Shown piece after piece: positions 13,466 through 60,659 of a stretch of DNA of 64,000 nt. The notes under the pieces are model-generated. The model saw only the letters and a program-made list of their open reading frames with translations. It ran no database searches and had not been told where the DNA came from. Source of the stretch: Muricea muricata (lineage: Eukaryota; Cnidaria; Anthozoa; Malacalcyonacea; Plexauridae); NCBI GenBank assembly GCA_963855995.1, contig OY979716.1, positions 37,907,624 through 37,971,623 of the forward strand, given 5' to 3'. The stretch's first letter is position 1; each line of letters starts with the position of its first letter. The translations under genes and the position numbers were made by a program.

Positions 13466-13710
13466 CAATCCCGGACAAAACATCTGCGACACTTTGCAAG
13501 TTTTCAAAATTTGTATACCTTTCGGAATATTTTCCCCCTCGCCCCCTCCTTTCAATGTTGCTGAGATGCCTCAAACGATGGTTAACTAATCTGAAAACTT
13601 TCAACACTGTTTCGGGGGGAAGGGGGGGGGACTTTGTAAACTTTTCCAGCTCATTTTATATAATTTTGCCTACATTGAGTGAGTGTCGCTAATGGTTTTG
13701 TCCGGGATTG
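13466..13710. repeat. Right terminal repeat of Rep element
   Basis: 245 bp, same orientation as the left copy and identical to it except for one G fewer in the G-run and loss of the TG after it. It is preceded by TCAGA on the body side and followed by TA. It lies about 230 bp upstream of the Rep start, so it could carry the promoter or origin. Confidence 0.92.
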
Positions 13711-13712
13711 TA

Positions 13713-33522: not shown

Positions 33523-34614
33523 TTGAAAGAATGTCAGGACTTGGCGCTAATCAAAGTGGTGTTAGCAGTGAATACAAAGAGCAAAAGTCAAACTGACAAA
33601 TTGTTACATGAGTTTAACGATGTGTTTATTGGACAAGGCTGTGTATCAGAGGAGTATTCTATACAGTTAAATCTGCAAGTACAGCCAGTAGTGCATGCAG
33701 CAAGAAAGATACCTGTAGCTCTAAGAGAAAAAGTAAAGGCAGAGTTAGACAGAATGGAAAGGTTAAACGTAATAAGCAAAGTAGATCAGCCAACACAATG
33801 GGTAAACTCAATGGTGGTGGTACCCAAACCAAACGGGACTGTGAGAATTTGTTTAGACCCAAGGGATCTGAATAAGGCAATAAAGCGGGAACACTATAAA
33901 ATGCCAACCCTTGAGGAAGTGACAAGTCAGTTGTCAGGGGCTCAATACTTCAGAGTACTTGATGCGACATCGGGTTATTGGGCCATACCCCTATCCAAAG
34001 AATCGTCGATTTTAACTACGTTCCAAACTCCGTATGGTCGGTATCGTTATTTGCGAATGCCATTTGGAATTTGTTCCGCTCAGGAGGTATTCCAGAAGAG
34101 AATGGATAGAATTTTCGAGGGGCTTCCGGGTGTACACATTACCGTTGACGACATCTTAGTTGCAGGGTCAACAGTTGAACAGCATGATGAGAGGCTACGA
34201 GCAACCCTTGTTACAGCCAGAAAGAACGGAATTAAGTTTAGCCCAAAGAAGATACAAAGATGCTCTACAGAGGTGAAATTCTTTGGTGAAATGTTGACAA
34301 AAGATGGGATAAAGCCTGATCCAGAGAAGATAGCAGCAGTAGAGAAGATGAGTTCCCCGAAGAGCAAGAAAGCGCTCGAATGTCAGCAGGGGATGTTGAC
34401 GTATCTGTCACAGTATTCACCTTATCTTTCTCAGAAGACTGCTAGTCTAAGAGAGCTATGTAAAGAAGATCGAGAATGGATATGGTGCCCGGAGCATGAA
34501 GAAGCATTTACAGAGATAAAAAAGATGACCACTGAAGTTCCTGGTCCCGTACTGCAGTATTATGATCCATCCAAGCCAATGAGAGTACAAGTAGATGCTT
34601 CACAGTCAGGCCTA
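33523..34614 (+). pseudogene. Gypsy reverse transcriptase and start of RNase H, cut by array
   Basis: RT motifs in order: MVVVPKPNGTVRICLDPRDL, FRVLDATSGYWAI, LRMPFGICSAQEVFQ, ITVDDILVAG (catalytic Asp pair) and VKFFGEMLT. The connection domain and the first RNase H Asp (VQVDASQS) follow. The array begins at 34615, within the RNase H start. The frame and motif continue at 60660 when the array and one TA are discounted. Confidence 0.9.
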
Positions 34615-34805
34615 CAATCAAGTGCAAAAATTGTTGAGACAACAATATAATTTTCCCCCTCCCCCCTATTTCAATGTTGCTGTTATCGTACGAAGGCGAA
34701 AAACAATTAAAAATTTCCTCCAACATTGCCCAGGGGGGAAGGGGGTGATTTGTTTTAAAATAACAAGTAAAATGGGAGAAGTCTCATAATTTTTGCACCT
34801 GATTG
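34615..34805. repeat. Array terminal repeat TR1
   Basis: 191 bp, ends CAATCAAGTGCAAAAATT and AATTTTTGCACCTGATTG (inverted, one mismatch). A C-run (CCCCCTCCCCCC followed by TATTTCAATGTTGC) faces a G-run (GGGGGGAAGGGGG). The C-run plus TTTCAATGTTGCTG is shared with the TR of the 10969-13710 element although the rest has diverged. All nine copies look identical. Confidence 0.92.
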
Positions 34806-35360
34806 TCTGGTAAGTCATTTGATCACATAGTGCGTCCCAAATTTAAAATTTTATCAAATTACAGCTACAAACTTTACATAAGAATAAAGTATTTTTTTCG
34901 TGTTTTCAGGAAATTATTTTTTACGATGAAATATTTTCTATAGGTAGAAACTATACAAGGACGAGCGCGGTTAAATTCTAGTAACCTGGGTTCTAGTATA
35001 ATTGGCGGGGAATTCGAATTTCATTACGTAATGTGTTTATGTATTGCTGTATGAAGTACAAAATACAGAAGCAAGTGGAACAATTTCTTTTGATAGCGTT
35101 TTAATAGCAGAACATAACAAGAAAAAGGTTGGAAAGGTTAGTCCAAACAATTTTAATCTATTGTTTAACATTTAAAATCACATATGTATACATAATTAAT
35201 GCCATTATATCTACAATTTCATTAACGTTAATACATTGAAATTTCAATCTATGAGAACAAAAATAAAAACCTAAGGCTAAGATTAAAGTATGAGTTATTT
35301 AACTGTTATAAATCAAATAACTTGGAATAACGCTAATTGTGTCTCTTTCGCAGAAAATGA

Positions 35361-35673
35361 ATCAGTCTGAAGATCGACGACGACTTTAAGATTGAGCTTA
35401 AGACCAGTCAGGCACGAAGAACATATCTTGTCATCTACAGTCAAGCAGATTTAAGCAAATTTCCGGCAAGACAGAGGTTTGGGGAGCAAGTTGTCGGGTA
35501 TTTCAATGCTGGTTCGGGGAAAGTCGAAGTTGAACACTGGGCATGTTGTCAGGAATCCCACGATACCACGGCCGGGGTACGTATGTATGTATGTACCAGA
35601 AGAAGAGCAAAAGGATGTTTCGCCATGCCCATGCTGTTTCACAGAATTGGTTCTTCTAGATGAAGATTTTTAA
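35361..35673 (+). pseudogene. Rep remnant, N- and C-terminal ends joined (unit 1)
   Basis: From 35361 the frame gives a short charged leader, then TYLVIYSQADLSKF, the counterpart of motif I of the Rep at 13234 (YLITYSQANLNKF). The similarity continues through WACCQESHD, opposite WCCCLEDHE. It stops about 35570, just before the HUH site. The next 100 bases, in another frame, encode PEEEQKDVSPCPCCFTELVL, the counterpart of the C-terminal tail PQEEQTDITPCSRCF. HUH, catalytic Tyr and the whole helicase are missing, so about 1 kb was deleted internally. Equivalent copies begin at 38649, 41937, 45225, 48513, 51801, 55089 and 58151. It cannot encode a working Rep. Confidence 0.78.
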
Positions 35674-35782
35674 CTGCCTGTCTACTTTTTCCACATTTTT
35701 AAATGCTTTAAAGCGATATGTTTGTCCGTGCTAGTCCGTGCTATAATCCATGTACACAGTGTGTTCACCATGCTTACATTAC

Positions 35783-36035
35783 GCACACGTTACAGCACGT
35801 AACACAACACGTTACACTACACGTTACAGTAAATTTGTAGAGAAATATTAAGAAATATATACTAAATATCACACGTTACACACGTTACACTTCATTTTTA
35901 TTAAAAAGTATAATTTAATTTTCTTTTAAAAACATTGAGTGTAACGTGTGTAACGTGTGCAATTTACTCTCTAATTCTTATAATATTAGGTGTAACCTGT
36001 GGTGTGACGTGTGGTGTAACGTGGTGTAACGTGTT
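35783..36035. promoter_or_regulatory. CACGTTACAC iterons in a large imperfect palindrome (unit 1)
   Basis: ACGTTAC or its complement GTAACGT occurs about ten times over 253 bp. Left-half copies mostly read ACGTTACAC and right-half copies read GTGTAACGT, so the block is an imperfect palindrome centred near 35915 (perfect near 35869-35891 with 35937-35960). It lies about 110 bp downstream of the Rep remnant stop, the same place as the ACGGTGTACC iterons of the other element. Candidate Rep-binding or origin region; it could also be an independent foldback insert. Confidence 0.6.
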
Positions 36036-36250
36036 GGATTGTCAATTGAAGAAAAGAGAAACTGACATAAACATGTAAGAGAAATAAAGAGACACGAGCG
36101 TTGAGTTATGGTTACAATATACATTAATATATGGTGTTTTAAAACACATAATATTGTAAAGATATTGCAGAATGGAATGCTTCAGCAGTTACTGGTTATT
36201 GATCTGGTTACATTGGTAAGACAACGTTTGGGAGCAAGTGTATTATTTAA

Positions 36251-37313
36251 TCAATACTTCAACCTTTGTCCTCGGTTTTCGATGATCGTTACGACGCGTT
36301 TTTTCATCGATTCAATGATTTTGTCTATAGTATTTTTAGGAAAGTTCATAATCGTATATCTTTAACTCTCTTTGAGAACTGACCAAAGTCCTCATATTTT
36401 ATTTCCATTTCGAGCGCATCCTTCTCAAGCTGTTTTGACACTAAGTGAAACAGATTTTCAATCAGGTTAAGGTCTGGGCTACGAGGTGGTATGGAGAACA
36501 CCAATGCTGCAACGTCTTTGAATCGGCTCGCTTAGCGAGGGCGCTGTTTTGTACAGGGTCACCATCCTGAAGGAAGCGCATTACTATGGAATTAGCGCTT
36601 TTGGCAAATATCTGCGGGAAGTTCAGCCGAACGTATTCGGAAAAGGACTCTCCATTCATACGCTGAAAGTATTGGTCGCATGCTATTACCCCTTAATTTA
36701 TTATAAGCGATGGACACAAAAAAGTGAGCCGTTCTACCTTCCACACCAGCTTTTTTCCCTTTGCTTGTACAAGGTAGTGCAAGACCTTCTCCTCTTTTTC
36801 TCCACGCCAACAAATGACATCCCATCTATATAGAAGCTGATCCCAGATTTCCAGAAATCATCCGGCAACAGTCTCCTAATCTTTCGTGCAAATTGATGCC
36901 TGCGCGACATATCTTTTCGGGTCAGAAGGCCTTTCTTACGAGAATGTAAATAGTGATAGCCTTGCCTCTTTAATGCTCTTCTGATCGTCCACAAGGAAAC
37001 ATCAGGACTTATGCCTGCCGCAGCTCGAAGTCTTGAAGCTGAAAACGACCCAATCGTTGCCCTATACATTTGCGAAACTCTCTCACAAGATTTCGTTCAT
37101 CTCGAACAGTTAACTTTCTCGGACGACCTTCATTCTGTCTACATTGTCAAAATTATCCTCTTCGTCAATTGATAATTTTGCGTGGCGGTAAATGGTAGCT
37201 TTACTATAGTTCAGAAATGCTTCTAACAGCTTCCTTCCTCTAACATGATTTTTCTGATACATAAACCTCATATAAATGGAGGTTTCCTTCGGGACAAACT
37301 TCCTTGTCTTCAT
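36251..37313 (-). pseudogene. Tc1-like DDE transposase, frameshifted (unit 1)
   Basis: Minus-strand segments in changing frames, in protein order: a first helix-turn-helix (KATIYRHAKLS), GRPRKLTVRDE (the GRPR-type hinge), a second helix-turn-helix (DVSLWTIRRALKRQGYHY), ISFYIDGMSF (first Asp), RFLQDGDPVQNS (second Asp) and IPPRSPDLNLIENLF (third acidic residue, Glu). The C-terminus ends RGQRLKY at 36251. The second and third acidic residues are about 35 apart, normal for Tc1. Frame changes near 37110, 36820, 36530 and 36360 inactivate it identically in every unit. Counterparts: 39539-40601, 42827-43889, 46115-47177, 49403-50465, 52691-53753, and shortened 55979-56816 and 59041-59878. Confidence 0.8.
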
Positions 37314-37732
37314 TACCTGAGGTTATTATATTTAATTAGCGAATAATTTTGAACGCATGATATATGAAGTCGGTTAATTGGGAAATAATTGTATGAAATG
37401 ATTATGCAAACAGTAAGTGCATACTGATAACAGCTTAACTGTTATTATATGAAATCGAATATACTCCAAAGACTATTGTGCAATTATAACGAAATTATTG
37501 GACTCGCAAAACCACACGTGTTTCCGAATATTATTCTGAGGAAAACAAAATGTTATACTATTTTGAAAAATTATGTAAATTTATAAAAATACATTAAGCT
37601 TTAAATTTTTCCAAGTGCGCGTTTACTAGCTCTAAATCTTATAATCATATTTTACACGACGAAAACTTAGATATTTACCTGTAAGATCACACCAGTGATT
37701 GTACTCATAATGACGTAATAATAACCCTACGA

Positions 37733-37790
37733 TGACGTCATCAATCAATGTAAAGGATATATTTAGATTCATATTCTAAATATACTGGAC
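37733..37790 (+). promoter_or_regulatory. Candidate promoter before TR (CRE-like site and TATA-like boxes)
   Basis: TGACGTCA (37733-37740), a perfect CRE/ATF palindrome, is preceded by TGACGTAA at 37711 and followed by ATATATTTAG and CTAAATATAC. Transcription rightward from here would cross the next TR, meet a GTAAGT donor-like site just after it, and reach the next Rep remnant. Inferred from motifs only; repeated in every unit. Confidence 0.35.
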
Positions 37791-37902
37791 ATGTTTACAA
37801 ATACCAATAGACAGGATACTACGGTTTACACAGCTGGAAGTAGACAAACAAACTCGATAATTTAATGAATTTTATTACAGAAAAGCTGAAAATGCATAGA
37901 GA

Positions 37903-40900
37903 CAATCAAGTGCAAAAATTGTTGAGACAACAATATAATTTTCCCCCTCCCCCCTATTTCAATGTTGCTGTTATCGTACGAAGGCGAAAAACAATTAAAA
38001 ATTTCCTCCAACATTGCCCAGGGGGGAAGGGGGTGATTTGTTTTAAAATAACAAGTAAAATGGGAGAAGTCTCATAATTTTTGCACCTGATTGTCTGGTA
38101 AGTCATTTGATCACATAGTGCGTCCCAAATTTAAAATTTTATCAAATTACAGCTACAAACTTTACATAAGAATAAAGTATTTTTTTCGTGTTTTCAGGAA
38201 ATTATTTTTTACGATGAAATATTTTCTATAGGTAGAAACTATACAAGGACGAGCGCGGTTAAATTCTAGTAACCTGGGTTCTAGTATAATTGGCGGGGAA
38301 TTCGAATTTCATTACGTAATGTGTTTATGTATTGCTGTATGAAGTACAAAATACAGAAGCAAGTGGAACAATTTCTTTTGATAGCGTTTTAATAGCAGAA
38401 CATAACAAGAAAAAGGTTGGAAAGGTTAGTCCAAACAATTTTAATCTATTGTTTAACATTTAAAATCACATATGTATACATAATTAATGCCATTATATCT
38501 ACAATTTCATTAACGTTAATACATTGAAATTTCAATCTATGAGAACAAAAATAAAAACCTAAGGCTAAGATTAAAGTATGAGTTATTTAACTGTTATAAA
38601 TCAAATAACTTGGAATAACGCTAATTGTGTCTCTTTCGCAGAAAATGAATCAGTCTGAAGATCGACGACGACTTTAAGATTGAGCTTAAGACCAGTCAGG
38701 CACGAAGAACATATCTTGTCATCTACAGTCAAGCAGATTTAAGCAAATTTCCGGCAAGACAGAGGTTTGGGGAGCAAGTTGTCGGGTATTTCAATGCTGG
38801 TTCGGGGAAAGTCGAAGTTGAACACTGGGCATGTTGTCAGGAATCCCACGATACCACGGCCGGGGTACGTATGTATGTATGTACCAGAAGAAGAGCAAAA
38901 GGATGTTTCGCCATGCCCATGCTGTTTCACAGAATTGGTTCTTCTAGATGAAGATTTTTAACTGCCTGTCTACTTTTTCCACATTTTTAAATGCTTTAAA
39001 GCGATATGTTTGTCCGTGCTAGTCCGTGCTATAATCCATGTACACAGTGTGTTCACCATGCTTACATTACGCACACGTTACAGCACGTAACACAACACGT
39101 TACACTACACGTTACAGTAAATTTGTAGAGAAATATTAAGAAATATATACTAAATATCACACGTTACACACGTTACACTTCATTTTTATTAAAAAGTATA
39201 ATTTAATTTTCTTTTAAAAACATTGAGTGTAACGTGTGTAACGTGTGCAATTTACTCTCTAATTCTTATAATATTAGGTGTAACCTGTGGTGTGACGTGT
39301 GGTGTAACGTGGTGTAACGTGTTGGATTGTCAATTGAAGAAAAGAGAAACTGACATAAACATGTAAGAGAAATAAAGAGACACGAGCGTTGAGTTATGGT
39401 TACAATATACATTAATATATGGTGTTTTAAAACACATAATATTGTAAAGATATTGCAGAATGGAATGCTTCAGCAGTTACTGGTTATTGATCTGGTTACA
39501 TTGGTAAGACAACGTTTGGGAGCAAGTGTATTATTTAATCAATACTTCAACCTTTGTCCTCGGTTTTCGATGATCGTTACGACGCGTTTTTTCATCGATT
39601 CAATGATTTTGTCTATAGTATTTTTAGGAAAGTTCATAATCGTATATCTTTAACTCTCTTTGAGAACTGACCAAAGTCCTCATATTTTATTTCCATTTCG
39701 AGCGCATCCTTCTCAAGCTGTTTTGACACTAAGTGAAACAGATTTTCAATCAGGTTAAGGTCTGGGCTACGAGGTGGTATGGAGAACACCAATGCTGCAA
39801 CGTCTTTGAATCGGCTCGCTTAGCGAGGGCGCTGTTTTGTACAGGGTCACCATCCTGAAGGAAGCGCATTACTATGGAATTAGCGCTTTTGGCAAATATC
39901 TGCGGGAAGTTCAGCCGAACGTATTCGGAAAAGGACTCTCCATTCATACGCTGAAAGTATTGGTCGCATGCTATTACCCCTTAATTTATTATAAGCGATG
40001 GACACAAAAAAGTGAGCCGTTCTACCTTCCACACCAGCTTTTTTCCCTTTGCTTGTACAAGGTAGTGCAAGACCTTCTCCTCTTTTTCTCCACGCCAACA
40101 AATGACATCCCATCTATATAGAAGCTGATCCCAGATTTCCAGAAATCATCCGGCAACAGTCTCCTAATCTTTCGTGCAAATTGATGCCTGCGCGACATAT
40201 CTTTTCGGGTCAGAAGGCCTTTCTTACGAGAATGTAAATAGTGATAGCCTTGCCTCTTTAATGCTCTTCTGATCGTCCACAAGGAAACATCAGGACTTAT
40301 GCCTGCCGCAGCTCGAAGTCTTGAAGCTGAAAACGACCCAATCGTTGCCCTATACATTTGCGAAACTCTCTCACAAGATTTCGTTCATCTCGAACAGTTA
40401 ACTTTCTCGGACGACCTTCATTCTGTCTACATTGTCAAAATTATCCTCTTCGTCAATTGATAATTTTGCGTGGCGGTAAATGGTAGCTTTACTATAGTTC
40501 GGAAATGCTTCTAACAGCTTCCTTCCTCTAACATGATTTTTCTGATACATAAACCTCATATAAATGGAGGTTTCCTTCGGGACAAACTTCCTTGTCTTCA
40601 TTACCTGAGGTTATTATATTTAATTAGCGAATAATTTTGAACGCATGATATATGAAGTCGGTTAATTGGGAAATAATTGTATGAAATGATTACGCAAACA
40701 GTAAGTGCATACTGATAACAGCTTAACTGTTATTATATGAAATCGAATATACTCCAAAGACTATTGTGCAATTATAACGAAATTATTGGACTCGCAAAAC
40801 CACACGTGTTTCCGAATATTATTCTGAGGAAAACAAAATGTTATACTATTTTGAAAAATTATGTAAATTTATAAAAATACATTAAGCTTTAAATTTTTCC

Positions 40901-41190
40901 AAGTGCGCGTTTACTAGCTCTAAATCTTATAATCATATTTTACACGACGAAAACTTAGATATTTACCTGTAAGATCACACCAGTGATTGTACTCATAATG
41001 ACGTAATAATAACCCTACGATGACGTCATCAATCAATGTAAAGGATATATTTAGATTCATATTCTAAATATACTGGACATGTTTACAAATACCAATAGAC
41101 AGGATACTACGGTTTACACAGCTGGAAGTAGACAAACAAACTCGATAATTTAATGAATTTTATTACAGAAAAGCTGAAAATGCATAGAGA
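37903..41190 (+). mobile_element. Array unit 2 (3288 bp)
   Basis: TR 37903-38093, Rep remnant 38649-38961, iterons 39071-39323, Tc1 remnant 39539-40601. It matches the consensus at all sites noted. Confidence 0.92.
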
Positions 41191-44100
41191 CAATCAAGTG
41201 CAAAAATTGTTGAGACAACAATATAATTTTCCCCCTCCCCCCTATTTCAATGTTGCTGTTATCGTACGAAGGCGAAAAACAATTAAAAATTTCCTCCAAC
41301 ATTGCCCAGGGGGGAAGGGGGTGATTTGTTTTAAAATAACAAGTAAAATGGGAGAAGTCTCATAATTTTTGCACCTGATTGTCTGGTAAGTCATTTGATC
41401 ACATAGTGCGTCCCAAATTTAAAATTTTATCAAATTACAGCTACAAACTTTACATAAGAATAAAGTATTTTTTTCGTGTTTTCAGGAAATTATTTTTTAC
41501 GATGAAATATTTTCTATAGGTAGAAACTATACAAGGACGAGCACGGTTAAATTCTAGTAACCTGGGTTCTAGTATAATTGGCGGGGAATTCGAATTTCAT
41601 TACGTAATGTGTTTATGTATTGCTGTATGAAGTACAAAATACAGAAGCAAGTGGAACAATTTCTTTTGATAGCGTTTTAATAGCAGAACATAACAAGAAA
41701 AAGGTTGGAAAGGTTAGTCCAAACAATTTTAATCTATTGTTTAACATTTAAAATCACATATGTATACATAATTAATGCCATTATATCTACAATTTCATTA
41801 ACGTTAATACATTGAAATTTCAATCTATGAGAACAAAAATAAAAACCTAAGGCTAAGATTAAAGTATGAGTTATTTAACTGTTATAAATCAAATAACTTG
41901 GAATAACGCTAATTGTGTCTCTTTCGCAGAAAATGAATCAGTCTGAAGATCGACGACGACTTTAAGATTGAGCTTAAGACCAGTCAGGCACGAAGAACAT
42001 ATCTTGTCATCTACAGTCAAGCAGATTTAAGCAAATTTCCGGCAAGACAGAGGTTTGGGGAGCAAGTTGTCGGGTATTTCAATGCTGGTTCGGGGAAAGT
42101 CGAAGTTGAACACTGGGCATGTTGTCAGGAATCCCACGATACCACGGCCGGGGTACGTATGTATGTATGTACCAGAAGAAGAGCAAAAGGATGTTTCGCC
42201 ATGCCCATGCTGTTTCACAGAATTGGTTCTTCTAGATGAAGATTTTTAACTGCCTGTCTACTTTTTCCACATTTTTAAATGCTTTAAAGCGATATGTTTG
42301 TCCGTGCTAGTCCGTGCTATAATCCATGTACACAGTGTGTTCACCATGCTTACATTACGCACACGTTACAGCACGTAACACAACACGTTACACTACACGT
42401 TACAGTAAATTTGTAGAGAAATATTAAGAAATATATACTAAATATCACACGTTACACACGTTACACTTCATTTTTATTAAAAAGTATAATTTAATTTTCT
42501 TTTAAAAACATTGAGTGTAACGTGTGTAACGTGTGCAATTTACTCTCTAATTCTTATAATATTAGGTGTAACCTGTGGTGTGACGTGTGGTGTAACGTGG
42601 TGTAACGTGTTGGATTGTCAATTGAAGAAAAGAGAAACTGACATAAACATGTAAGAGAAATAAAGAGACACGAGCGTTGAGTTATGGTTACAATATACAT
42701 TAATATATGGTGTTTTAAAACACATAATATTGTAAAGATATTGCAGAATGGAATGCTTCAGCAGTTACTGGTTATTGATCTGGTTACATTGGTAAGACAA
42801 CGTTTGGGAGCAAGTGTATTATTTAATCAATACTTCAACCTTTGTCCTCGGTTTTCGATGATCGTTACGACGCGTTTTTTCATCGATTCAATGATTTTGT
42901 CTATAGTATTTTTAGGAAAGTTCATAATCGTATATCTTTAACTCTCTTTGAGAACTGACCAAAGTCCTCATATTTTATTTCCATTTCGAGCGCATCCTTC
43001 TCAAGCTGTTTTGACACTAAGTGAAACAGATTTTCAATCAGGTTAAGGTCTGGGCTACGAGGTGGTATGGAGAACACCAATGCTGCAACGTCTTTGAATC
43101 GGCTCGCTTAGCGAGGGCGCTGTTTTGTACAGGGTCACCATCCTGAAGGAAGCGCATTACTATGGAATTAGCGCTTTTGGCAAATATCTGCGGGAAGTTC
43201 AGCCGAACGTATTCGGAAAAGGACTCTCCATTCATACGCTGAAAGTATTGGTCGCATGCTATTACCCCTTAATTTATTATAAGCGATGGACACAAAAAAG
43301 TGAGCCGTTCTACCTTCCACACCAGCTTTTTTCCCTTTGCTTGTACAAGGTAGTGCAAGACCTTCTCCTCTTTTTCTCCACGCCAACAAATGACATCCCA
43401 TCTATATAGAAGCTGATCCCAGATTTCCAGAAATCATCCGGCAACAGTCTCCTAATCTTTCGTGCAAATTGATGCCTGCGCGACATATCTTTTCGGGTCA
43501 GAAGGCCTTTCTTACGAGAATGTAAATAGTGATAGCCTTGCCTCTTTAATGCTCTTCTGATCGTCCACAAGGAAACATCAGGACTTATGCCTGCCGCAGC
43601 TCGAAGTCTTGAAGCTGAAAACGACCCAATCGTTGCCCTATACATTTGCGAAACTCTCTCACAAGATTTCGTTCATCTCGAACAGTTAACTTTCTCGGAC
43701 GACCTTCATTCTGTCTACATTGTCAAAATTATCCTCTTCGTCAATTGATAATTTTGCGTGGCGGTAAATGGTAGCTTTACTATAGTTCGGAAATGCTTCT
43801 AACAGCTTCCTTCCTCTAACATGATTTTTCTGATACATAAACCTCATATAAATGGAGGTTTCCTTCGGGACAAACTTCCTTGTCTTCATTACCTGAGGTT
43901 ATTATATTTAATTAGCGAATAATTTTGAACGCATGATATATGAAGTCGGTTAATTGGGAAATAATTGTATGAAATGATTACGCAAACAGTAAGTGCATAC
44001 TGATAACAGCTTAACTGTTATTATATGAAATCGAATATACTCCAAAGACTATTGTGCAATTATAACGAAATTATTGGACTCGCAAAACCACACGTGTTTC

Positions 44101-44478
44101 CGAATATTATTCTGAGGAAAACAAAATGTTATACTATTTTGAAAAATTATGTAAATTTATAAAAATACATTAAGCTTTAAATTTTTCCAAGTGCGCGTTT
44201 ACTAGCTCTAAATCTTATAATCATATTTTACACGACGAAAACTTAGATATTTACCTGTAAGATCACACCAGTGATTGTACTCATAATGACGTAATAATAA
44301 CCCTACGATGACGTCATCAATCAATGTAAAGGATATATTTAGATTCATATTCTAAATATACTGGACATGTTTACAAATACCAATAGACAGGATACTACGG
44401 TTTACACAGCTGGAAGTAGACAAACAAACTCGATAATTTAATGAATTTTATTACAGAAAAGCTGAAAATGCATAGAGA
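41191..44478 (+). mobile_element. Array unit 3 (3288 bp)
   Basis: TR 41191-41381, Rep remnant 41937-42249, iterons 42359-42611, Tc1 remnant 42827-43889. Private variant GAGCACGG instead of GAGCGCGG near 41542. Confidence 0.92.
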
Positions 44479-47766: not shown

Positions 47767-50700
47767 CAATCAAGTGCAAAAATTGTTGAGACAACAATAT
47801 AATTTTCCCCCTCCCCCCTATTTCAATGTTGCTGTTATCGTACGAAGGCGAAAAACAATTAAAAATTTCCTCCAACATTGCCCAGGGGGGAAGGGGGTGA
47901 TTTGTTTTAAAATAACAAGTAAAATGGGAGAAGTCTCATAATTTTTGCACCTGATTGTCTGGTAAGTCATTTGATCACATAGTGCGTCCCAAATTTAAAA
48001 TTTTATCAAATTACAGCTACAAACTTTACATAAGAATAAAGTATTTTTTTCGTGTTTTCAGGAAATTATTTTTTACGATGAAATATTTTCTATAGGTAGA
48101 AACTATACAAGGACGAGCGCGGTTAAATTCTAGTAACCTGGGTTCTAGTATAATTGGCGGGGAATTCGAATTTCATTACGTAATGTGTTTATGTATTGCT
48201 GTATGAAGTACAAAATACAGAAGCAAGTGGAACAATTTCTTTTGATAGCGTTTTAATAGCAGAACATAACAAGAAAAAGGTTGGAAAGGTTAGTCCAAAC
48301 AATTTTAATCTATTGTTTAACATTTAAAATCACATATGTATACATAATTAATGCCATTATATCTACAATTTCATTAACGTTAATACATTGAAATTTCAAT
48401 CTATGAGAACAAAAATAAAAACCTAAGGCTAAGATTAAAGTATGAGTTATTTAACTGTTATAAATCAAATAACTTGGAATAACGCTAATTGTGTCTCTTT
48501 CGCAGAAAATGAATCAGTCTGAAGATCGACGACGACTTTAAGATTGAGCTTAAGACCAGTCAGGCACGAAGAACATATCTTGTCATCTACAGTCAAGCAG
48601 ATTTAAGCAAATTTCCGGCAAGACAGAGGTTTGGGGAGCAAGTTGTCGGGTATTTCAATGCTGGTTCGGGGAAAGTCGAAGTTGAACACTGGGCATGTTG
48701 TCAGGAATCCCACGATACCACGGCCGGGGTACGTATGTATGTATGTACCAGAAGAAGAGCAAAAGGATGTTTCGCCATGCCCATGCTGTTTCACAGAATT
48801 GGTTCTTCTAGATGAAGATTTTTAACTGCCTGTCTACTTTTTCCACATTTTTAAATGCTTTAAAGCGATATGTTTGTCCGTGCTAGTCCGTGCTATAATC
48901 CATGTACACAGTGTGTTCACCATGCTTACATTACGCACACGTTACAGCACGTAACACAACACGTTACACTACACGTTACAGTAAATTTGTAGAGAAATAT
49001 TAAGAAATATATACTAAATATCACACGTTACACACGTTACACTTCATTTTTATTAAAAAGTATAATTTAATTTTCTTTTAAAAACATTGAGTGTAACGTG
49101 TGTAACGTGTGCAATTTACTCTCTAATTCTTATAATATTAGGTGTAACCTGTGGTGTGACGTGTGGTGTAACGTGGTGTAACGTGTTGGATTGTCAATTG
49201 AAGAAAAGAGAAACTGACATAAACATGTAAGAGAAATAAAGAGACACGAGCGTTGAGTTATGGTTACAATATACATTAATATATGGTGTTTTAAAACACA
49301 TAATATTGTAAAGATATTGCAGAATGGAATGCTTCAGCAGTTACTGGTTATTGATCTGGTTACATTGGTAAGACAACGTTTGGGAGCAAGTGTATTATTT
49401 AATCAATACTTCAACCTTTGTCCTCGGTTTTCGATGATCGTTACGACGCGTTTTTTCATCGATTCAATGATTTTGTCTATAGTATTTTTAGGAAAGTTCA
49501 TAATCGTATATCTTTAACTCTCTTTGAGAACTGACCAAAGTCCTCATATTTTATTTCCATTTCGAGCGCATCCTTCTCAAGCTGTTTTGACACTAAGTGA
49601 AACAGATTTTCAATCAGGTTAAGGTCTGGGCTACGAGGTGGTATGGAGAACACCAATGCTGCAACGTCTTTGAATCGGCTCGCTTAGCGAGGGCGCTGTT
49701 TTGTACAGGGTCACCATCCTGAAGGAAGCGCATTACTATGGAATTAGCGCTTTTGGCAAATATCTGCGGGAAGTTCAGCCGAACGTATTCGGAAAAGGAC
49801 TCTCCATTCATACGCTGAAAGTATTGGTCGCATGCTATTACCCCTTAATTTATTATAAGCGATGGACACAAAAAAGTGAGCCGTTCTACCTTCCACACCA
49901 GCTTTTTTCCCTTTGCTTGTACAAGGTAGTGCAAGACCTTCTCCTCTTTTTCTCCACGCCAACAAATGACATCCCATCTATATAGAAGCTGATCCCAGAT
50001 TTCCAGAAATCATCCGGCAACAGTCTCCTAATCTTTCGTGCAAATTGATGCCTGCGCGACATATCTTTTCGGGTCAGAAGGCCTTTCTTACGAGAATGTA
50101 AATAGTGATAGCCTTGCCTCTTTAATGCTCTTCTGATCGTCCACAAGGAAACATCAGGACTTATGCCTGCCGCAGCTCGAAGTCTTGAAGCTGAAAACGA
50201 CCCAATCGTTGCCCTATACATTTGCGAAACTCTCTCACAAGATTTCGTTCATCTCGAACAGTTAACTTTCTCGGACGACCTTCATTCTGTCTACATTGTC
50301 AAAATTATCCTCTTCGTCAATTGATAATTTTGCGTGGCGGTAAATGGTAGCTTTACTATAGTTCGGAAATGCTTCTAACAGCTTCCTTCCTCTAACATGA
50401 TTTTTCTGATACATAAACCTCATATAAATGGAGGTTTCCTTCGGGACAAACTTCCTTGTCTTCATTACCTGAGGTTATTATATTTAATTAGCGAATAATT
50501 TTGAACGCATGATATATGAAGTCGGTTAATTGGGAAATAATTGTATGAAATGATTACGCAAACAGTAAGTGCATACTGATAACAGCTTAACTGTTATTAT
50601 ATGAAATCGAATATACTCCAAAGACTATTGTGCAATTATAACGAAATTATTGGACTCGCAAAACCACACGTGTTTCCGAATATTATTCTGAGGAAAACAA

Positions 50701-51054
50701 AATGTTATACTATTTTGAAAAATTATGTAAATTTATAAAAATACATTAAGCTTTAAATTTTTCCAAGTGCGCGTTTACTAGCTCTAAATCTTATAATCAT
50801 ATTTTACACGACGAAAACTTAGATATTTACCTGTAAGATCACACCAGTGATTGTACTCATAATGACGTAATAATAACCCTACGATGACGTCATCAATCAA
50901 TGTAAAGGATATATTTAGATTCATATTCTAAATATACTGGACATGTTTACAAATACCAATAGACAGGATACTACGGTTTACACAGCTGGAAGTAGACAAA
51001 CAAACTCGATAATTTAATGAATTTTATTACAGAAAAGCTGAAAATGCATAGAGA
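47767..51054 (+). mobile_element. Array unit 5 (3288 bp)
   Basis: TR 47767-47957, Rep remnant 48513-48825, iterons 48935-49187, Tc1 remnant 49403-50465. No private variant noticed. Confidence 0.92.
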
Positions 51055-54000
51055 CAATCAAGTGCAAAAATTGTTGAGACAACAATATAATTTTCCCCCT
51101 CCCCCCTATTTCAATGTTGCTGTTATCGTACGAAGGCGAAAAACAATTAAAAATTTCCTCCAACATTGCCCAGGGGGGAAGGGGGTGATTTGTTTTAAAA
51201 TAACAAGTAAAATGGGAGAAGTCTCATAATTTTTGCACCTGATTGTCTGGTAAGTCATTTGATCACATAGTGCGTCCCAAATTTAAAATTTTATCAAATT
51301 ACAGCTACAAACTTTACATAAGAATAAAGTATTTTTTTCGTGTTTTCAGGAAATTATTTTTTACGATGAAATATTTTCTATAGGTAGAAACTATACAAGG
51401 ACGAGCGCGGTTAAATTCTAGTAACCTGGGTTCTAGTATAATTGGCGGGGAATTCGAATTTCATTACGTAATGTGTTTATGTATTGCTGTATGAAGTACA
51501 AAATACAGAAGCAAGTGGAACAATTTCTTTTGATAGCGTTTTAATAGCAGAACATAACAAGAAAAAGGTTGGAAAGGTTAGTCCAAACAATTTTAATCTA
51601 TTGTTTAACATTTAAAATCACATATGTATACATAATTAATGCCATTATATCTACAATTTCATTAACGTTAATACATTGAAATTTCAATCTATGAGAACAA
51701 AAATAAAAACCTAAGGCTAAGATTAAAGTATGAGTTATTTAACTGTTATAAATCAAATAACTTGGAATAACGCTAATTGTGTCTCTTTCGCAGAAAATGA
51801 ATCAGTCTGAAGATCGACGACGACTTTAAGATTGAGCTTAAGACCAGTCAGGCACGAAGAACATATCTTGTCATCTACAGTCAAGCAGATTTAAGCAAAT
51901 TTCCGGCAAGACAGAGGTTTGGGGAGCAAGTTGTCGGGTATTTCAATGCTGGTTCGGGGAAAGTCGAAGTTGAACACTGGGCATGTTGTCAGGAATCCCA
52001 CGATACCACGGCCGGGGTACGTATGTATGTATGTACCAGAAGAAGAGCAAAAGGATGTTTCGCCATGCCCATGCTGTTTCACAGAATTGGTTCTTCTAGA
52101 TGAAGATTTTTAACTGCCTGTCTACTTTTTCCACATTTTTAAATGCTTTAAAGCGATATGTTTGTCCGTGCTAGTCCGTGCTATAATCCATGTACACAGT
52201 GTGTTCACCATGCTTACATTACGCACACGTTACAGCACGTAACACAACACGTTACACTACACGTTACAGTAAATTTGTAGAGAAATATTAAGAAATATAT
52301 ACTAAATATCACACGTTACACACGTTACACTTCATTTTTATTAAAAAGTATAATTTAATTTTCTTTTAAAAACATTGAGTGTAACGTGTGTAACGTGTGC
52401 AATTTACTCTCTAATTCTTATAATATTAGGTGTAACCTGTGGTGTGACGTGTGGTGTAACGTGGTGTAACGTGTTGGATTGTCAATTGAAGAAAAGAGAA
52501 ACTGACATAAACATGTAAGAGAAATAAAGAGACACGAGCGTTGAGTTATGGTTACAATATACATTAATATATGGTGTTTTAAAACACATAATATTGTAAA
52601 GATATTGCAGAATGGAATGCTTCAGCAGTTACTGGTTATTGATCTGGTTACATTGGTAAGACAACGTTTGGGAGCAAGTGTATTATTTAATCAATACTTC
52701 AACCTTTGTCCTCGGTTTTCGATGATCGTTACGACGCGTTTTTTCATCGATTCAATGATTTTGTCTATAGTATTTTTAGGAAAGTTCATAATCGTATATC
52801 TTTAACTCTCTTTGAGAACTGACCAAAGTCCTCATATTTTATTTCCATTTCGAGCGCATCCTTCTCAAGCTGTTTTGACACTAAGTGAAACAGATTTTCA
52901 ATCAGGTTAAGGTCTGGGCTACGAGGTGGTATGGAGAACACCAATGCTGCAACGTCTTTGAATCGGCTCGCTTAGCGAGGGCGCTGTTTTGTACAGGGTC
53001 ACCATCCTGAAGGAAGCGCATTACTATGGAATTAGCGCTTTTGGCAAATATCTGCGGGAAGTTCAGCCGAACGTATTCGGAAAAGGACTCTCCATTCATA
53101 CGCTGAAAGTATTGGTCGCATGCTATTACCCCTTAATTTATTATAAGCGATGGACACAAAAAAGTGAGCCGTTCTACCTTCCACACCAGCTTTTTTCCCT
53201 TTGCTTGTACAAGGTAGTGCAAGACCTTCTCCTCTTTTTCTCCACGCCAACAAATGACATCCCATCTATATAGAAGCTGATCCCAGATTTCCAGAAATCA
53301 TCCGGCAACAGTCTCCTAATCTTTCGTGCAAATTGATGCCTGCGCGACATATCTTTTCGGGTCAGAAGGCCTTTCTTACGAGAATGTAAATAGTGATAGC
53401 CTTGCCTCTTTAATGCTCTTCTGATCGTCCACAAGGAAACATCAGGACTTATGCCTGCCGCAGCTCGAAGTCTTGAAGCTGAAAACGACCCAATCGTTGC
53501 CCTATACATTTGCGAAACTCTCTCACAAGATTTCGTTCATCTCGAACAGTTAACTTTCTCGGACGACCTTCATTCTGTCTACATTGTCAAAATTATCCTC
53601 TTCGTCAATTGATAATTTTGCGTGGCGGTAAATGGTAGCTTTACTATAGTTCGGAAATGCTTCTAACAGCTTCCTTCCTCTAACATGATTTTTCTGATAC
53701 ATAAACCTCATATAAATGGAGGTTTCCTTCGGGACAAACTTCCTTGTCTTCATTACCTGAGGTTATTATATTTAATTAGCGAATAATTTTGAACGCATGA
53801 TATATGAAGTCGGTTAATTGGGAAATAATTGTATGAAATGATTACGCAAACAGTAAGTGCATACTGATAACAGCTTAACTGTTATTATATGAAATCGAAT
53901 ATACTCCAAAGACTATTGTGCAATTATAACGAAATTATTGGACTCGCAAAACCACACGTGTTTCCGAATATTATTCTGAGGAAAACAAAATGTTATACTA

Positions 54001-54342
54001 TTTTGAAAAATTATGTAAATTTATAAAAATACATTAAGCTTTAAATTTTTCCAAGTGCGCGTTTACTAGCTCTAAATCTTATAATCATATTTTACACGAC
54101 GAAAACTTAGATATTTACCTGTAAGATCACACCAGTGATTGTACTCATAATGACGTAATAATAACCCTACGATGACGTCATCAATCAATGTAAAGGATAT
54201 ATTTAGATTCATATTCTAAATATACTGGACATGTTTACAAATACCAATAGACAGGATACTACGGTTTACACAGCTGGAAGTAGACAAACAAACTCGATAA
54301 TTTAATGAATTTTATTACAGAAAAGCTGAAAATGCATAGAGA
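51055..54342 (+). mobile_element. Array unit 6 (3288 bp)
   Basis: TR 51055-51245, Rep remnant 51801-52113, iterons 52223-52475, Tc1 remnant 52691-53753. No private variant noticed. Confidence 0.92.
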
Positions 54343-57300
54343 CAATCAAGTGCAAAAATTGTTGAGACAACAATATAATTTTCCCCCTCCCCCCTATTTC
54401 AATGTTGCTGTTATCGTACGAAGGCGAAAAACAATTAAAAATTTCCTCCAACATTGCCCAGGGGGGAAGGGGGTGATTTGTTTTAAAATAACAAGTAAAA
54501 TGGGAGAAGTCTCATAATTTTTGCACCTGATTGTCTGGTAAGTCATTTGATCACATAGTGCGTCCCAAATTTAAAATTTTATCAAATTACAGCTACAAAC
54601 TTTACATAAGAATAAAGTATTTTTTTCGTGTTTTCAGGAAATTATTTTTTACGATGAAATATTTTCTATAGGTAGAAACTATACAAGGACGAGCGCGGTT
54701 AAATTCTAGTAACCTGGGTTCTAGTATAATTGGCGGGGAATTCGAATTTCATTACGTAATGTGTTTATGTATTGCTGTATGAAGTACAAAATACAGAAGC
54801 AAGTGGAACAATTTCTTTTGATAGCGTTTTAATAGCAGAACATAACAAGAAAAAGGTTGGAAAGGTTAGTCCAAACAATTTTAATCTATTGTTTAACATT
54901 TAAAATCACATATGTATACATAATTAATGCCATTATATCTACAATTTCATTAACGTTAATACATTGAAATTTCAATCTATGAGAACAAAAATAAAAACCT
55001 AAGGCTAAGATTAAAGTATGAGTTATTTAACTGTTATAAATCAAATAACTTGGAATAACGCTAATTGTGTCTCTTTCGCAGAAAATGAATCAGTCTGAAG
55101 ATCGACGACGACTTTAAGATTGAGCTTAAGACCAGTCAGGCACGAAGAACATATCTTGTCATCTACAGTCAAGCAGATTTAAGCAAATTTCCGGCAAGAC
55201 AGAGGTTTGGGGAGCAAGTTGTCGGGTATTTCAATGCTGGTTCGGGGAAAGTCGAAGTTGAACACTGGGCATGTTGTCAGGAATCCCACGATACCACGGC
55301 CGGGGTACGTATGTATGTATGTACCAGAAGAAGAGCAAAAGGATGTTTCGCCATGCCCATGCTGTTTCACAGAATTGGTTCTTCTAGATGAAGATTTTTA
55401 ACTGCCTGTCTACTTTTTCCACATTTTTAAATGCTTTAAAGCGATATGTTTGTCCGTGCTAGTCCGTGCTATAATCCATGTACACAGTGTGTTCACCATG
55501 CTTACATTACGCACACGTTACAGCACGTAACACAACACGTTACACTACACGTTACAGTAAATTTGTAGAGAAATATTAAGAAATATATACTAAATATCAC
55601 ACGTTACACACGTTACACTTCATTTTTATTAAAAAGTATAATTTAATTTTCTTTTAAAAACATTGAGTGTAACGTGTGTAACGTGTGCAATTTACTCTCT
55701 AATTCTTATAATATTAGGTGTAACCTGTGGTGTGACGTGTGGTGTAACGTGGTGTAACGTGTTGGATTGTCAATTGAAGAAAAGAGAAACTGACATAAAC
55801 ATGTAAGAGAAATAAAGAGACACGAGCGTTGAGTTATGGTTACAATATACATTAATATATGGTGTTTTAAAACACATAATATTGTAAAGATATTGCAGAA
55901 TGGAATGCTTCAGCAGTTACTGGTTATTGATCTGGTTACATTGGTAAGACAACGTTTGGGAGCAAGTGTATTATTTAATCAATACTTCAACCTTTGTCCT
56001 CGGTTTTCGATGATCGTTACGACGCGTTTTTTCATCGATTCAATGATTTTGTCTATAGTATTTTTAGGAAAGTTCATAATCGTATATCTTTAACTCTCTT
56101 TGAGAACTGACCAAAGTCCTCATATTTTATTTCCATTTCGAGCGCATCCTTCTCAAGCTGTTTTGACACTAAGTGAAACAGATTTTCAATCAGGTTAAGG
56201 TCTGGGCTACGAGGTGGTATGGAGAACACCAATGCTGCAACGTCTTTGAATCGGCTCGCTTAGCGAGGGCGCTGTTTTGTACAGGGTCACCATCCTGAAG
56301 GAAGCGCATTACTATGGAATTAGCGCTTTTGGCAAATATCTGCGGGAAGTTCAGCCGAAATCATCCGGCAACAGTCTCCTAATCTTTCGTGCAAATTGAT
56401 GCCTGCGCGACATATCTTTTCGGGTCAGAAGGCCTTTCTTACGAGAATGTAAATAGTGATAGCCTTGCCTCTTTAATGCTCTTCTGATCGTCCACAAGGA
56501 AACATCAGGACTTATGCCTGCCGCAGTTCGAAGTCTTGAAGCTGAAAACGACCCAATCGTTGCCCTATACATTTGCGAAACTCTCTCACAAGATTTCGTT
56601 CATCTCGAACAGTTAACTTTCTCGGACGACCTTCATTCTGTCTACATTGTCAAAATTATCCTCTTCGTCAATTGATAATTTTGCGTGGCGGTAAATGGTA
56701 GCTTTACTATAGTTCGGAAATGCTTCTAACAGCTTCCTTCCTCTAACATGATTTTTCTGATACATAAACCTCATATAAATGGAGGTTTCCTTCGGGACAA
56801 ACTTCCTTGTCTTCATTACCTGAGGTTATTATATTTAATTAGCGAATAATTTTGAACGCATGATATATGAAGTCGGTTAATTGGGAAATATTGTATGAAA
56901 TGATTACGCAAACAGTAAGTGCATACTGATAACAGCTTAACTGTTATTATATGAAATCGAATATACTCCAAAGACTATTGTGCAATTATAACGAAATTAT
57001 TGGACTCGCAAAACCACACGTGTTTCCGAATATTATTCTGAGGAAAACAAAATGTTATACTATTTTGAAAAATTATGTAAATTTATAAAAATACATTAAG
57101 CTTTAAATTTTTCCAAGTGCGCGTTTACTAGCTCTAAATCTTATAATCATATTTTACACAACGAAAACTTAGATATTTACCTGTAAGATCACACCAGTGA
57201 TTGTACTCATAATGACGTAATAATAACCCTACGATGACGTCATCAATCAATGTAAAGGATATATTTAGATTCATATTCTAAATATACTGGACATGTTTAC

Positions 57301-57404
57301 AAATACCAATAGACAGGATACTACGGTTTACACAGCTGGAAGTAGACAAACAAACTCGATAATTTAATGAATTTTATTACAGAAAAGCTGAAAATGCATA
57401 GAGA
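54343..57404 (+). mobile_element. Array unit 7 (3062 bp, deletion variant)
   Basis: TR 54343-54533, Rep remnant 55089-55401, iterons 55511-55763, Tc1 remnant 55979-56816. A 225-bp deletion at about 56359 removes the first catalytic Asp region of the transposase; GAA microhomology is at the join. Also C to T at 56527, a 1-bp deletion near 56889 and G to A at 57160, all shared with unit 8. Confidence 0.92.
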
Positions 57405-60400
57405 CAATCAAGTGCAAAAATTGTTGAGACAACAATATAATTTTCCCCCTCCCCCCTATTTCAATGTTGCTGTTATCGTACGAAGGCGAAAAACAATTAA
57501 AAATTTCCTCCAACATTGCCCAGGGGGGAAGGGGGTGATTTGTTTTAAAATAACAAGTAAAATGGGAGAAGTCTCATAATTTTTGCACCTGATTGTCTGG
57601 TAAGTCATTTGATCACATAGTGCGTCCCAAATTTAAAATTTTATCAAATTACAGCTACAAACTTTACATAAGAATAAAGTATTTTTTTCGTGTTTTCAGG
57701 AAATTATTTTTTACGATGAAATATTTTCTATAGGTAGAAACTATACAAGGACGAGCGCGGTTAAATTCTAGTAACCTGGGTTCTAGTATAATTGGCGGGG
57801 AATTCGAATTTCATTACGTAATGTGTTTATGTATTGCTGTATGAAGTACAAAATACAGAAGCAAGTGGAACAATTTCTTTTGATAGCGTTTTAATAGCAG
57901 AACATAACAAGAAAAAGGTTGGAAAGGTTAGTCCAAACAATTTTAATCTATTGTTTAACATTTAAAATCACATATGTATACATAATTAATGCCATTATAT
58001 CTACAATTTCATTAACGTTAATACATTGAAATTTCAATCTATGAGAACAAAAATAAAAACCTAAGGCTAAGATTAAAGTATGAGTTATTTAACTGTTATA
58101 AATCAAATAACTTGGAATAACGCTAATTGTGTCTCTTTCGCAGAAAATGAATCAGTCTGAAGATCGACGACGACTTTAAGATTGAGCTTAAGACCAGTCA
58201 GGCACGAAGAACATATCTTGTCATCTACAGTCAAGCAGATTTAAGCAAATTTCCGGCAAGACAGAGGTTTGGGGAGCAAGTTGTCGGGTATTTCAATGCT
58301 GGTTCGGGGAAAGTCGAAGTTGAACACTGGGCATGTTGTCAGGAATCCCACGATACCACGGCCGGGGTACGTATGTATGTATGTACCAGAAGAAGAGCAA
58401 AAGGATGTTTCGCCATGCCCATGCTGTTTCACAGAATTGGTTCTTCTAGATGAAGATTTTTAACTGCCTGTCTACTTTTTCCACATTTTTAAATGCTTTA
58501 AAGCGATATGTTTGTCCGTGCTAGTCCGTGCTATAATCCATGTACACAGTGTGTTCACCATGCTTACATTACGCACACGTTACAGCACGTAACACAACAC
58601 GTTACACTACACGTTACAGTAAATTTGTAGAGAAATATTAAGAAATATATACTAAATATCACACGTTACACACGTTACACTTCATTTTTATTAAAAAGTA
58701 TAATTTAATTTTCTTTTAAAAACATTGAGTGTAACGTGTGTAACGTGTGCAATTTACTCTCTAATTCTTATAATATTAGGTGTAACCTGTGGTGTGACGT
58801 GTGGTGTAACGTGGTGTAACGTGTTGGATTGTCAATTGAAGAAAAGAGAAACTGACATAAACATGTAAGAGAAATAAAGAGACACGAGCGTTGAGTTATG
58901 GTTACAATATACATTAATATATGGTGTTTTAAAACACATAATATTGTAAAGATATTGCAGAATGGAATGCTTCAGCAGTTACTGGTTATTGATCTGGTTA
59001 CATTGGTAAGACAACGTTTGGGAGCAAGTGTATTATTTAATCAATACTTCAACCTTTGTCCTCGGTTTTCGATGATCGTTACGACGCGTTTTTTCATCGA
59101 TTCAATGATTTTGTCTATAGTATTTTTAGGAAAGTTCATAATCGTATATCTTTAACTCTCTTTGAGAACTGACCAAAGTCCTCATATTTTATTTCCATTT
59201 CGAGCGCATCCTTCTCAAGCTGTTTTGACACTAAGTGAAACAGATTTTCAATCAGGTTAAGGTCTGGGCTACGAGGTGGTATGGAGAACACCAATGCTGC
59301 AACGTCTTTGAATCGGCTCGCTTAGCGAGGGCGCTGTTTTGTACAGGGTCACCATCCTGAAGGAAGCGCATTACTATGGAATTAGCGCTTTTGGCAAATA
59401 TCTGCGGGAAGTTCAGCCGAAATCATCCGGCAACAGTCTCCTAATCTTTCGTGCAAATTGATGCCTGCGCGACATATCTTTTCGGGTCAGAAGGCCTTTC
59501 TTACGAGAATGTAAATAGTGATAGCCTTGCCTCTTTAATGCTCTTCTGATCGTCCACAAGGAAACATCAGGACTTATGCCTGCCGCAGTTCGAAGTCTTG
59601 AAGCTGAAAACGACCCAATCGTTGCCCTATACATTTGCGAAACTCTCTCACAAGATTTCGTTCATCTCGAACAGTTAACTTTCTCGGACGACCTTCATTC
59701 TGTCTACATTGTCAAAATTATCCTCTTCGTCAATTGATAATTTTGCGTGGCGGTAAATGGTAGCTTTACTATAGTTCGGAAATGCTTCTAACAGCTTCCT
59801 TCCTCTAACATGATTTTTCTGATACATAAACCTCATATAAATGGAGGTTTCCTTCGGGACAAACTTCCTTGTCTTCATTACCTGAGGTTATTATATTTAA
59901 TTAGCGAATAATTTTGAACGCATGATATATGAAGTCGGTTAATTGGGAAATATTGTATGAAATGATTACGCAAACAGTAAGTGCATACTGATAACAGCTT
60001 AACTGTTATTATATGAAATCGAATATACTCCAAAGACTATTGTGCAATTATAACGAAATTATTGGACTCGCAAAACCACACGTGTTTCCGAATATTATTC
60101 TGAGGAAAACAAAATGTTATACTATTTTGAAAAATTATGTAAATTTATAAAAATACATTAAGCTTTAAATTTTTCCAAGTGCGCGTTTACTAGCTCTAAA
60201 TCTTATAATCATATTTTACACAACGAAAACTTAGATATTTACCTGTAAGATCACACCAGTGATTGTACTCATAATGACGTAATAATAACCCTACGATGAC
60301 GTCATCAATCAATGTAAAGGATATATTTAGATTCATATTCTAAATATACTGGACATGTTTACAAATACCAATAGACAGGATACTACGGTTTACACAGCTG

Positions 60401-60466
60401 GAAGTAGACAAACAAACTCGATAATTTAATGAATTTTATTACAGAAAAGCTGAAAATGCATAGAGA
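57405..60466 (+). mobile_element. Array unit 8 (3062 bp, deletion variant)
   Basis: TR 57405-57595, Rep remnant 58151-58463, iterons 58573-58825, Tc1 remnant 59041-59878. Carries the same 225-bp deletion (about 59421) and the same three small variants as unit 7. Confidence 0.92.
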
Positions 60467-60657
60467 CAATCAAGTGCAAAAATTGTTGAGACAACAATAT
60501 AATTTTCCCCCTCCCCCCTATTTCAATGTTGCTGTTATCGTACGAAGGCGAAAAACAATTAAAAATTTCCTCCAACATTGCCCAGGGGGGAAGGGGGTGA
60601 TTTGTTTTAAAATAACAAGTAAAATGGGAGAAGTCTCATAATTTTTGCACCTGATTG
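60467..60657. repeat. Closing terminal repeat TR9
   Basis: A ninth complete 191-bp TR with no body after it. It is followed by TA (60658-60659), then by the gypsy RNase H sequence. Its presence makes the array n bodies with n+1 repeats. Confidence 0.93.
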
Positions 60658-60659
60658 TA

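Follow-up and report, generated by a model that had tools for sequence, protein, structure and literature searches.

In an ordinary Tc1/mariner element, one pair of inverted repeats flanks one transposase gene, and cut-and-paste DNA transposons do not directly copy themselves. A composite-like plan is known from KolobokP. Its description reports long terminal direct repeats (LTDR) with inverted ends of their own, solo repeats, and multimers of the form (LTDR-INT)n-LTDR with one target duplication; excision of a lone repeat leaves INT-INT junctions, and the multimers are modelled by unequal crossing-over or circles (Kojima and Bao, 2022; PMC9587614). Helitrons and Replitrons are eukaryotic transposons with HUH enzymes. 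According to PMC10741241, neither group has terminal inverted repeats (TIRs); Helitron insertion takes place between A and T and duplicates nothing, and the direct repeats of Replitrons measure 5-11 bp. The present locus is a tandem array in the anthozoan Muricea muricata, lying in a stretch of 64,000 nucleotides of contig OY979716.1 that was analysed as a whole and is called the window. It appears to consist of multimerized copies of a non-autonomous element, which belongs to a composite-like family of DNA transposons encoding a replication initiator (Rep) and a transposase. The favoured explanation, with a probability of roughly 0.8, is a single transposase-mediated insertion followed by stepwise growth through exchange between terminal repeats (TRs).

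A self-BLAST comparison and a repeat search placed nine identical 193-bp TRs in the same orientation between 34614 and 60658, where they enclose eight head-to-tail bodies. The TRs start at 34614, 37902, 41190, 44478, 47766, 51054, 54342, 57404, and 60466. The inner TRs read AGA-CAATC...GATTG-TCT, and contact with TA is restricted to the outer two. This agrees with an earlier note on this DNA, which had described a 26-kb array of nine TRs and eight bodies with TA at its outermost ends; its eight copies are indeed eight head-to-tail units, but unequal ones, of 3,288 and 3,062 bp. In unit 1, N- and C-terminal remnants of Rep lie side by side, and thus the middle of Rep has been deleted in the array unit. 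The pieces of a transposase gene in the same unit matched HTH_Tnp_Tc3_2 (2.4e-7) and DDE_3 (4.9e-5), both below the Pfam cut-offs, and reached a best E of 3.5e-79 against open relatives in tblastn. Coordinates are collected in Table 1.

Complete relatives of the array unit are present in the host genome (453 Mb). Their plan is TR, Rep, a convergent Tc1/mariner-type DD34E transposase, and TR, in about 4 kb. At C2:13.82 Mb (L068), an open Rep and an open transposase lie between identical TRs, and the same open pair was found in an array at C1:9.79 Mb (L062). The element on C3 (L040) has an open Rep and a transposase that is open over 306 codons. This 5.4-kb copy seems to carry an insertion; a frame resembling the reverse transcriptase of long interspersed nuclear elements (LINE) was seen by eye between its left TR and Rep (reverse complement 1787-2953). 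A single-copy relative in the window, to which the earlier note had assigned a rolling-circle initiator, shares the plan of the array and does carry a Rep of this type, broken, with an HUH endonuclease and a superfamily 3 (SF3) helicase; a 3.9-kb relative at C2:39.13 Mb (L050) retains a transposase. A convergent transposase match was found in the flank of 9/12 Rep loci for which DNA was obtained (L058-L060 are near copies, and L055 has a 49-residue match only). Many Rep copies are open frames.

The transposases of L062 and L068 matched DDE_3 above the Pfam cut-off (1.7e-13 and 2.3e-11); HTH_Tnp_Tc3_2 passed its cut-off in L062 but fell short of it in L068. D258 and E293, which are both invariant in four aligned proteins, are separated by 34 residues. 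The sole PDB sequence match of these proteins at E 0.01 was Sleeping Beauty (2.9e-8, 1.2e-5). A chance insertion of the transposase in the array body was considered and rejected, since its position and orientation are the same in the open relatives. Rep of the family was identified as an HUH endonuclease with an SF3 helicase through predicted structure and through sequence motifs. Its Pfam matches are weak (best E 3.3e-5, for P0001). In predicted structure, the HUH domain is nearest to vientovirus and geminivirus Reps and the SF3 domain to Rep40 of adeno-associated virus (AAV), at 11-22% identity, in a ranking limited to the best Foldseek candidates, so that families missing there carry no meaning.

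Every TR by itself amounts to a full pair of transposon ends: a conserved hairpin core is flanked by inverted tips that read CAATC...GATTG or nearly so. The outer left TR folds as one long hairpin (z -6.6), as does the other TR that was folded (z -5.6); in neither case were any of 200 shuffles as stable. Six TRs were compared; since TR64 and TR68 share 92% identity, they represent five clearly distinct families. Both core 8-mers, CAATGTTG and CAACATTG, are exact in five of the six, and the single-copy family has one mismatch in the first 8-mer. Runs of at least four C precede the core in 5/6 TRs and G-runs follow it in all six. The length of the TRs ranges from 193 to 277 bp in the element family. 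When the cores of the TRs at 10968-11217 and 34614-34806 were compared relative to Rep, the inverted alignment scored 133 and the direct one 80 (500 shuffles: mean 28, highest 58). As judged from these alignments, TR orientation relative to Rep may flip over long times.

The array interrupts a gypsy frame, and this gives a view of the empty site. When 180 and 240 flank bases were joined with exactly one TA, an open and typical RNase H frame was obtained (DASQSGLGAVVMQNGQPIAYV...), and two TAs or none shifted it. An A before CAATC and a T after GATTG are also present at the inner TRs. Therefore, the array ends alone are no proof of TA duplication, and the proof lies in the excision scars described below. 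C-TA-G was found on both sides at 21/21 listed two-sided sites and at L047, or 22/22, and CTAG makes up 2.1% of the TAs in the window outside the array. This count covers two-sided sites only; one-sided sites were not counted, and seven old or duplicate places were kept apart. C2:50171 and the C2 array have a common right flank and are perhaps not independent within the 22 sites. C16:4631, also C-TA-G, was excluded because its flanks are nearly those of C16:4873; the other six excluded places are the five copies of an old solo insertion and the TR-TR at C1:11.78 Mb described below.

Seven junctions at which a TR is missing were obtained, with CAG at one, CTG at four, TG at one, and a deletion without a clear scar at one. 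Examples are AGA-CAG-TCT in the C2 array, CTA-CTG-TCT at C1:949, and AGA-CTG-TAG at C2:50171. Four of the seven had been predicted from shortened spacing (3,771, 3,772, 3,772, and 3,762 versus 4,023) before they were fetched; two of these proved to be CTG, one TG, and one the deletion, which runs into the body. Three TR-TR fusions, GATTGAATC, GATTCAATC, and GATTGCAATC, were also found. The scars would be expected if both strands were cut at the C...G tips, two bases apart, with an A-A mismatch, and GATTGAATC and GATTCAATC correspond to the outcome predicted from the same cuts with a G-G mismatch. Sleeping Beauty excision leaves much the same scar (CAG/CTG), and such scars would be unexpected from an HUH enzyme. 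Insertion by an HUH enzyme between T and A without duplication is allowed by the array ends, but was rejected because the six scarred junctions and three fusions place the tips at C...G, with cleavage of both strands there. The element is thus moved by its transposase through cut-and-paste with TA duplication. The single, duplicated TA of the earlier note is upheld by the frame, which exactly one TA restores, and by the scars.

In its TA duplication (22/22 listed two-sided sites, the empty-site frame, and the scars between TA and inner AGA/TCT), its DDE transposase with DD34-type spacing (DDE_3, the Sleeping Beauty match, and D258/E293), its HTH_Tc3-type domain, and its short scars from staggered tip cuts at the seven junctions, the element resembles Tc1/mariner transposons such as Sleeping Beauty. 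It differs in its two ends, which are entire inverted-repeat units lying in direct orientation, in place of a single inverted-repeat pair as boundary, and in that a Rep gene is carried. Because its direct-repeat ends depart from the usual plan, the element is classed as a variant of the superfamily, not an ordinary member of it. The earlier note knew of no described animal element with this combination; for the architecture this was wrong. KolobokP (PMC9587614) has the same LTDR-INT-LTDR composite-like plan, solo repeats, multimers, and a transposase with a gene for a DNA-cutting enzyme on the other strand. It differs in having a Kolobok transposase and a His-Me finger nuclease, in place of the Tc1/mariner-type transposase and HUH/SF3 Rep, and repeats of ~450 or 660 bp versus TRs of 193-277 bp. 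The present family further differs in its C-TA-G target with TA duplication and in blocks of up to 22 units in one direction. No description of a Tc1/mariner transposase paired with Rep was found in the literature searched, a scope outside which most subscription papers fall.

The earlier note would have been refuted by multimers found at this one locus only; this is not the case, as five further arrays of 5 to 30 copies were found. The C2 array has six units. Six Rep copies are present at C1:9.79 Mb (spacing 4,049), five on C9 (spacing 4,028), 17 on C3 (spacing mostly 4,023), and 30 on C34, of which 22 form one block and 8 another in the opposite orientation (spacing mostly 4,023); these four arrays hold 58/95 scored Rep matches. 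Variants occur in blocks on C34, where the 12 lowest copies have one stop each and the other 18 none, and two adjacent TRs of the C2 array have a common variant. Monomers, solo TRs, and TR-TR fusions are also present in the genome. Repeats of ~150 bp lie on both sides of the 17-copy array, near the end of C3 (L066 and L067; C3:60.576 and 60.645 Mb).

In the window array, units 1-6 are 3,288 bp each including the TR, and the adjacent units 7-8 are 3,062 bp each. Units 7 and 8 have a 225-bp deletion, a 1-bp deletion, and one substitution in common, and all three changes are derived when polarized by four outside copies (C1:95, C1:67, the C2 array, and C2:50171). Units 1-6 have another substitution in common, a derived state at position 2411. 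Private substitutions are found in unit 1 (two), unit 3 (one), and unit 4 (one); units 2, 5, and 6 are the same in sequence, as are 7 and 8. Since each block has derived changes of its own, the two unit types predate the multiplication of each. One rolling-circle template in a single step cannot yield two unit types in sorted blocks, and exchange between TRs can.

What the element is, and that the transposase integrated it, are well supported, and growth of the array in place is likely. A transposase supplied in trans would have made a single insertion, through the outermost TR tips, at a CTAG of the gypsy copy, and the TA would thereby have been duplicated. As the array then grew at the site, a long and a short unit type would first have diverged, and each would have been multiplied in place by exchange between TRs. 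Rep might promote such growth through nicks in the TR hairpin, or through replication of circles of TR and body that would recombine with TRs again. A role for Rep is proposed because Rep is present, its frames are open, and the TR hairpin is kept. It is possible, and offered tentatively, that the element has two engines, a Tc1/mariner-type transposase that cuts and pastes at CTAG and a virus-type Rep that replicates the excised TR-body circle from the TR hairpin, or nicks TRs in place, to build and feed arrays.

Several points weigh against these proposals. Rep could be mere cargo in array growth. At three of the 12 Rep loci, the fetched flank is without transposase. Co-divergence of Rep and transposase was considered and dropped, with their distances uncorrelated among eight loci (Mantel r 0.13; 1,056/5,000 permutations as high), and the pair may have been reshuffled among copies. 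In the long block, every one of the four private substitutions is a singleton, and one fast burst fits as well. One TR-less junction (L073; 1/7) has no clear scar. One old solo insertion is present five times, with the left TA lost in four. The five copies (L032, L035, L037, L038, and L039) have near-identical flanks, and in four of them a contig end is within ~27-67 kb; this recurrent solo TR marks a duplicated segment, which is perhaps subtelomeric. A single-copy-family TR-TR at C1:11.78 Mb (C1:11782915-11783377) has TG on both outer sides, perhaps a rare TG insertion with a 2-base duplication and no A before the C tip. Within an element body on C34, the TA that a TR tip adjoins is part of a GTAC. 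C34, a contig of 125 kb, is largely array, and its orientation switches near 92-93.4 kb (L069, C34:91800-93600), at this TR tip; the switch looks like a self-insertion.

That Rep is captured viral-type cargo without a copying role, with growth by ordinary unequal crossing-over, is rather unlikely. The lack of co-divergence would fit it, and tandem units with long direct repeats can expand unaided, but Rep and transposase occur together even where the Reps of the copies share only 42-61% identity, many Rep frames are open, and all six TRs compared retain a hairpin core. A second alternative is that the transposase inserted a ready-made multimer, from another array or from joined circles of two types, with no growth at the site. 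Any two TR tips could act as ends, five other arrays exist, and both ends carry C-TA-G. However, the sole other array seen of this family, on C2, is ~97.6% identical and has no short units (40/45 candidates scored), and a Tc1/mariner transposase would have had an unusually long stretch, 26 kb, to cut out. This origin is improbable.

The earlier note had inclined to the integration of a rolling-circle concatemer in one event and had left later expansion by unequal crossing-over between TRs open. Taken as a model in which Rep makes the concatemer and inserts all eight units at once at T^A, its reading is in keeping with the HUH and SF3 domains of Rep, the strong hairpins of the two folded TRs, the head-to-tail order of all units, and the singleton variants of the long block. 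It is contradicted by the double-strand cuts at C...G tips that left CAG, CTG, and TG scars and tip-to-tip fusions, by the family's own Tc1/mariner-type transposase, and by the sorted blocks of two unit types; a one-step origin is very improbable, and expansion by exchange is the better fit. An assembly artefact can hardly be credited, for although the exact count of near-identical units could be off, private variants tag units 1, 3, and 4, the deletion tags 7 and 8, and the array lies within a 124-Mb contig with similar arrays at five other places.

The element has features in common with parvoviruses (NS1, AAV Rep68) and circular Rep-encoding single-stranded (CRESS) DNA viruses, namely the HUH + SF3 Rep and the palindromic TR hairpin. 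It differs from them in its chromosomal location with TA duplication, in the constant TR orientation within the array, and in the absence of a capsid-sized frame in L068. No capsid gene was found between the L068 TRs, where three frames reach 150 codons, namely Rep, the transposase, and a frame antisense to Rep; a capsid that is shorter or has diverged strongly is possible. Rolling-hairpin replication as in parvoviruses predicts flip/flop of TRs and inverted dimers, and was rejected, as all nine TRs and eight units have one orientation. Pattern-based scans found no relatives in IMG/VR and none confirmed among 142 stretches of prokaryote genome contigs; there were also none in phages, and a comparison of the array unit, as DNA only, found none in plasmids. 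A virus origin was rejected on these grounds. The element also lies outside Helitrons, through its inverted tips and TA duplication, and outside Replitrons, through its TRs of 193-277 bp with TIRs.

Both proteins have homologues elsewhere. The best matches listed were 120 for Rep (119 with known contig size) and 120 of 1,524 for transposase, with 8,000 transposase candidates scored. Among the matches listed, the two have seven exact contig sizes in common, a number reached by 17/20,000 sets jittered by up to 5%, although equal size of two contigs is no proof of the same contig. It seems that Rep and transposase travel together elsewhere. Contig sizes peak at 3.5-4.33 kb among the matches listed (23/119 for Rep and 31/120 for transposase). 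This peak fits unit-length circles and equally collapsed repeats, and was not used as evidence of free circles. The named matches are from corals, with Rep in Porites and Paramuricea, and transposase in Paramuricea and Dendronephthya.

Other features of the window include DIRS-like reverse transcriptase and tyrosine recombinase frames at its ends (693-3520 and 63258-63977; Pfam RVT_1 and Phage_integrase), LINE-type endonuclease and reverse transcriptase frames at 7481-10338 (-), and a 423-codon frame at 23274-24545 (-) without a Pfam match at 0.001.

Table 1. Features of the array, its host frame, and the single-copy relative in the window.
Feature	Coordinates	Strand	Details
Host gypsy reverse transcriptase/RNase H frame, interrupted by the array	33523..34650	+	resumes at 60659
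Left-edge TA, one copy of the TA target duplication	34613..34614	.	context GGCC-TA
Outer left TR	34614..34806	+	193 bp including shared A..T; element tips C at 34615, G at 34805
TR core	34672..34728	+	CAATGTTG (34672-34679) ... CAACATTG (34721-34728); C-runs before, G-runs after; recurs in 6/6 TRs compared
Unit 1 body, non-autonomous	34807..37901	+	self-comparison
Rep N-terminal remnant, unit 1	35376..35600	+	~residues 7-83 of intact relative; tblastn vs C3-element Rep, 55% identity; 6 homologues
Rep C-terminal remnant, adjoining the N-terminal piece	35593..35670	+	73% identity to residues 436-461 of C3-element Rep
Inverted repeat of ACACGTTAC-type motifs in body	35785..36034	.	one per unit
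Broken Tc1/mariner-type transposase gene, unit 1	36254..37134	-	convergent to Rep; Pfam and tblastn
Units 2-7 (TR-body)	37902..57403	+	unit 7 (54342-57403) is of the short type
Unit 8	57404..60465	+	short type, identical to unit 7
Outer right TR	60466..60658	+	
Right-edge TA	60658..60659	.	context TA-GGTG
Single-copy relative	10968..13711	-	TR (13711-13465), broken Rep, TR (11217-10968); flanks AAGC-TA / TA-GGCC; transposase gone
Rep gene of single-copy element, HUH/SF3-type	11904..13240	-	three open pieces (13240-13004, 13022-12210, 12206-11904)

The composite direct-repeat plan of KolobokP seems to have arisen a second time in this family, once more together with a helper enzyme that cuts DNA, and this points to a general route to tandem arrays. 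A transposon with its own replication initiator beside its transposase would bear on how cut-and-paste elements multiply, and it offers a cellular setting for the exchange of parts between Rep-encoding replicons and transposons. If Rep does replicate or nick the element while the transposase moves it, the family would link DNA transposons with replicons of the parvovirus and CRESS type, in parallel to the transposase and homing-type endonuclease of KolobokP. The named coral homologues of both proteins make the question testable in other genomes.

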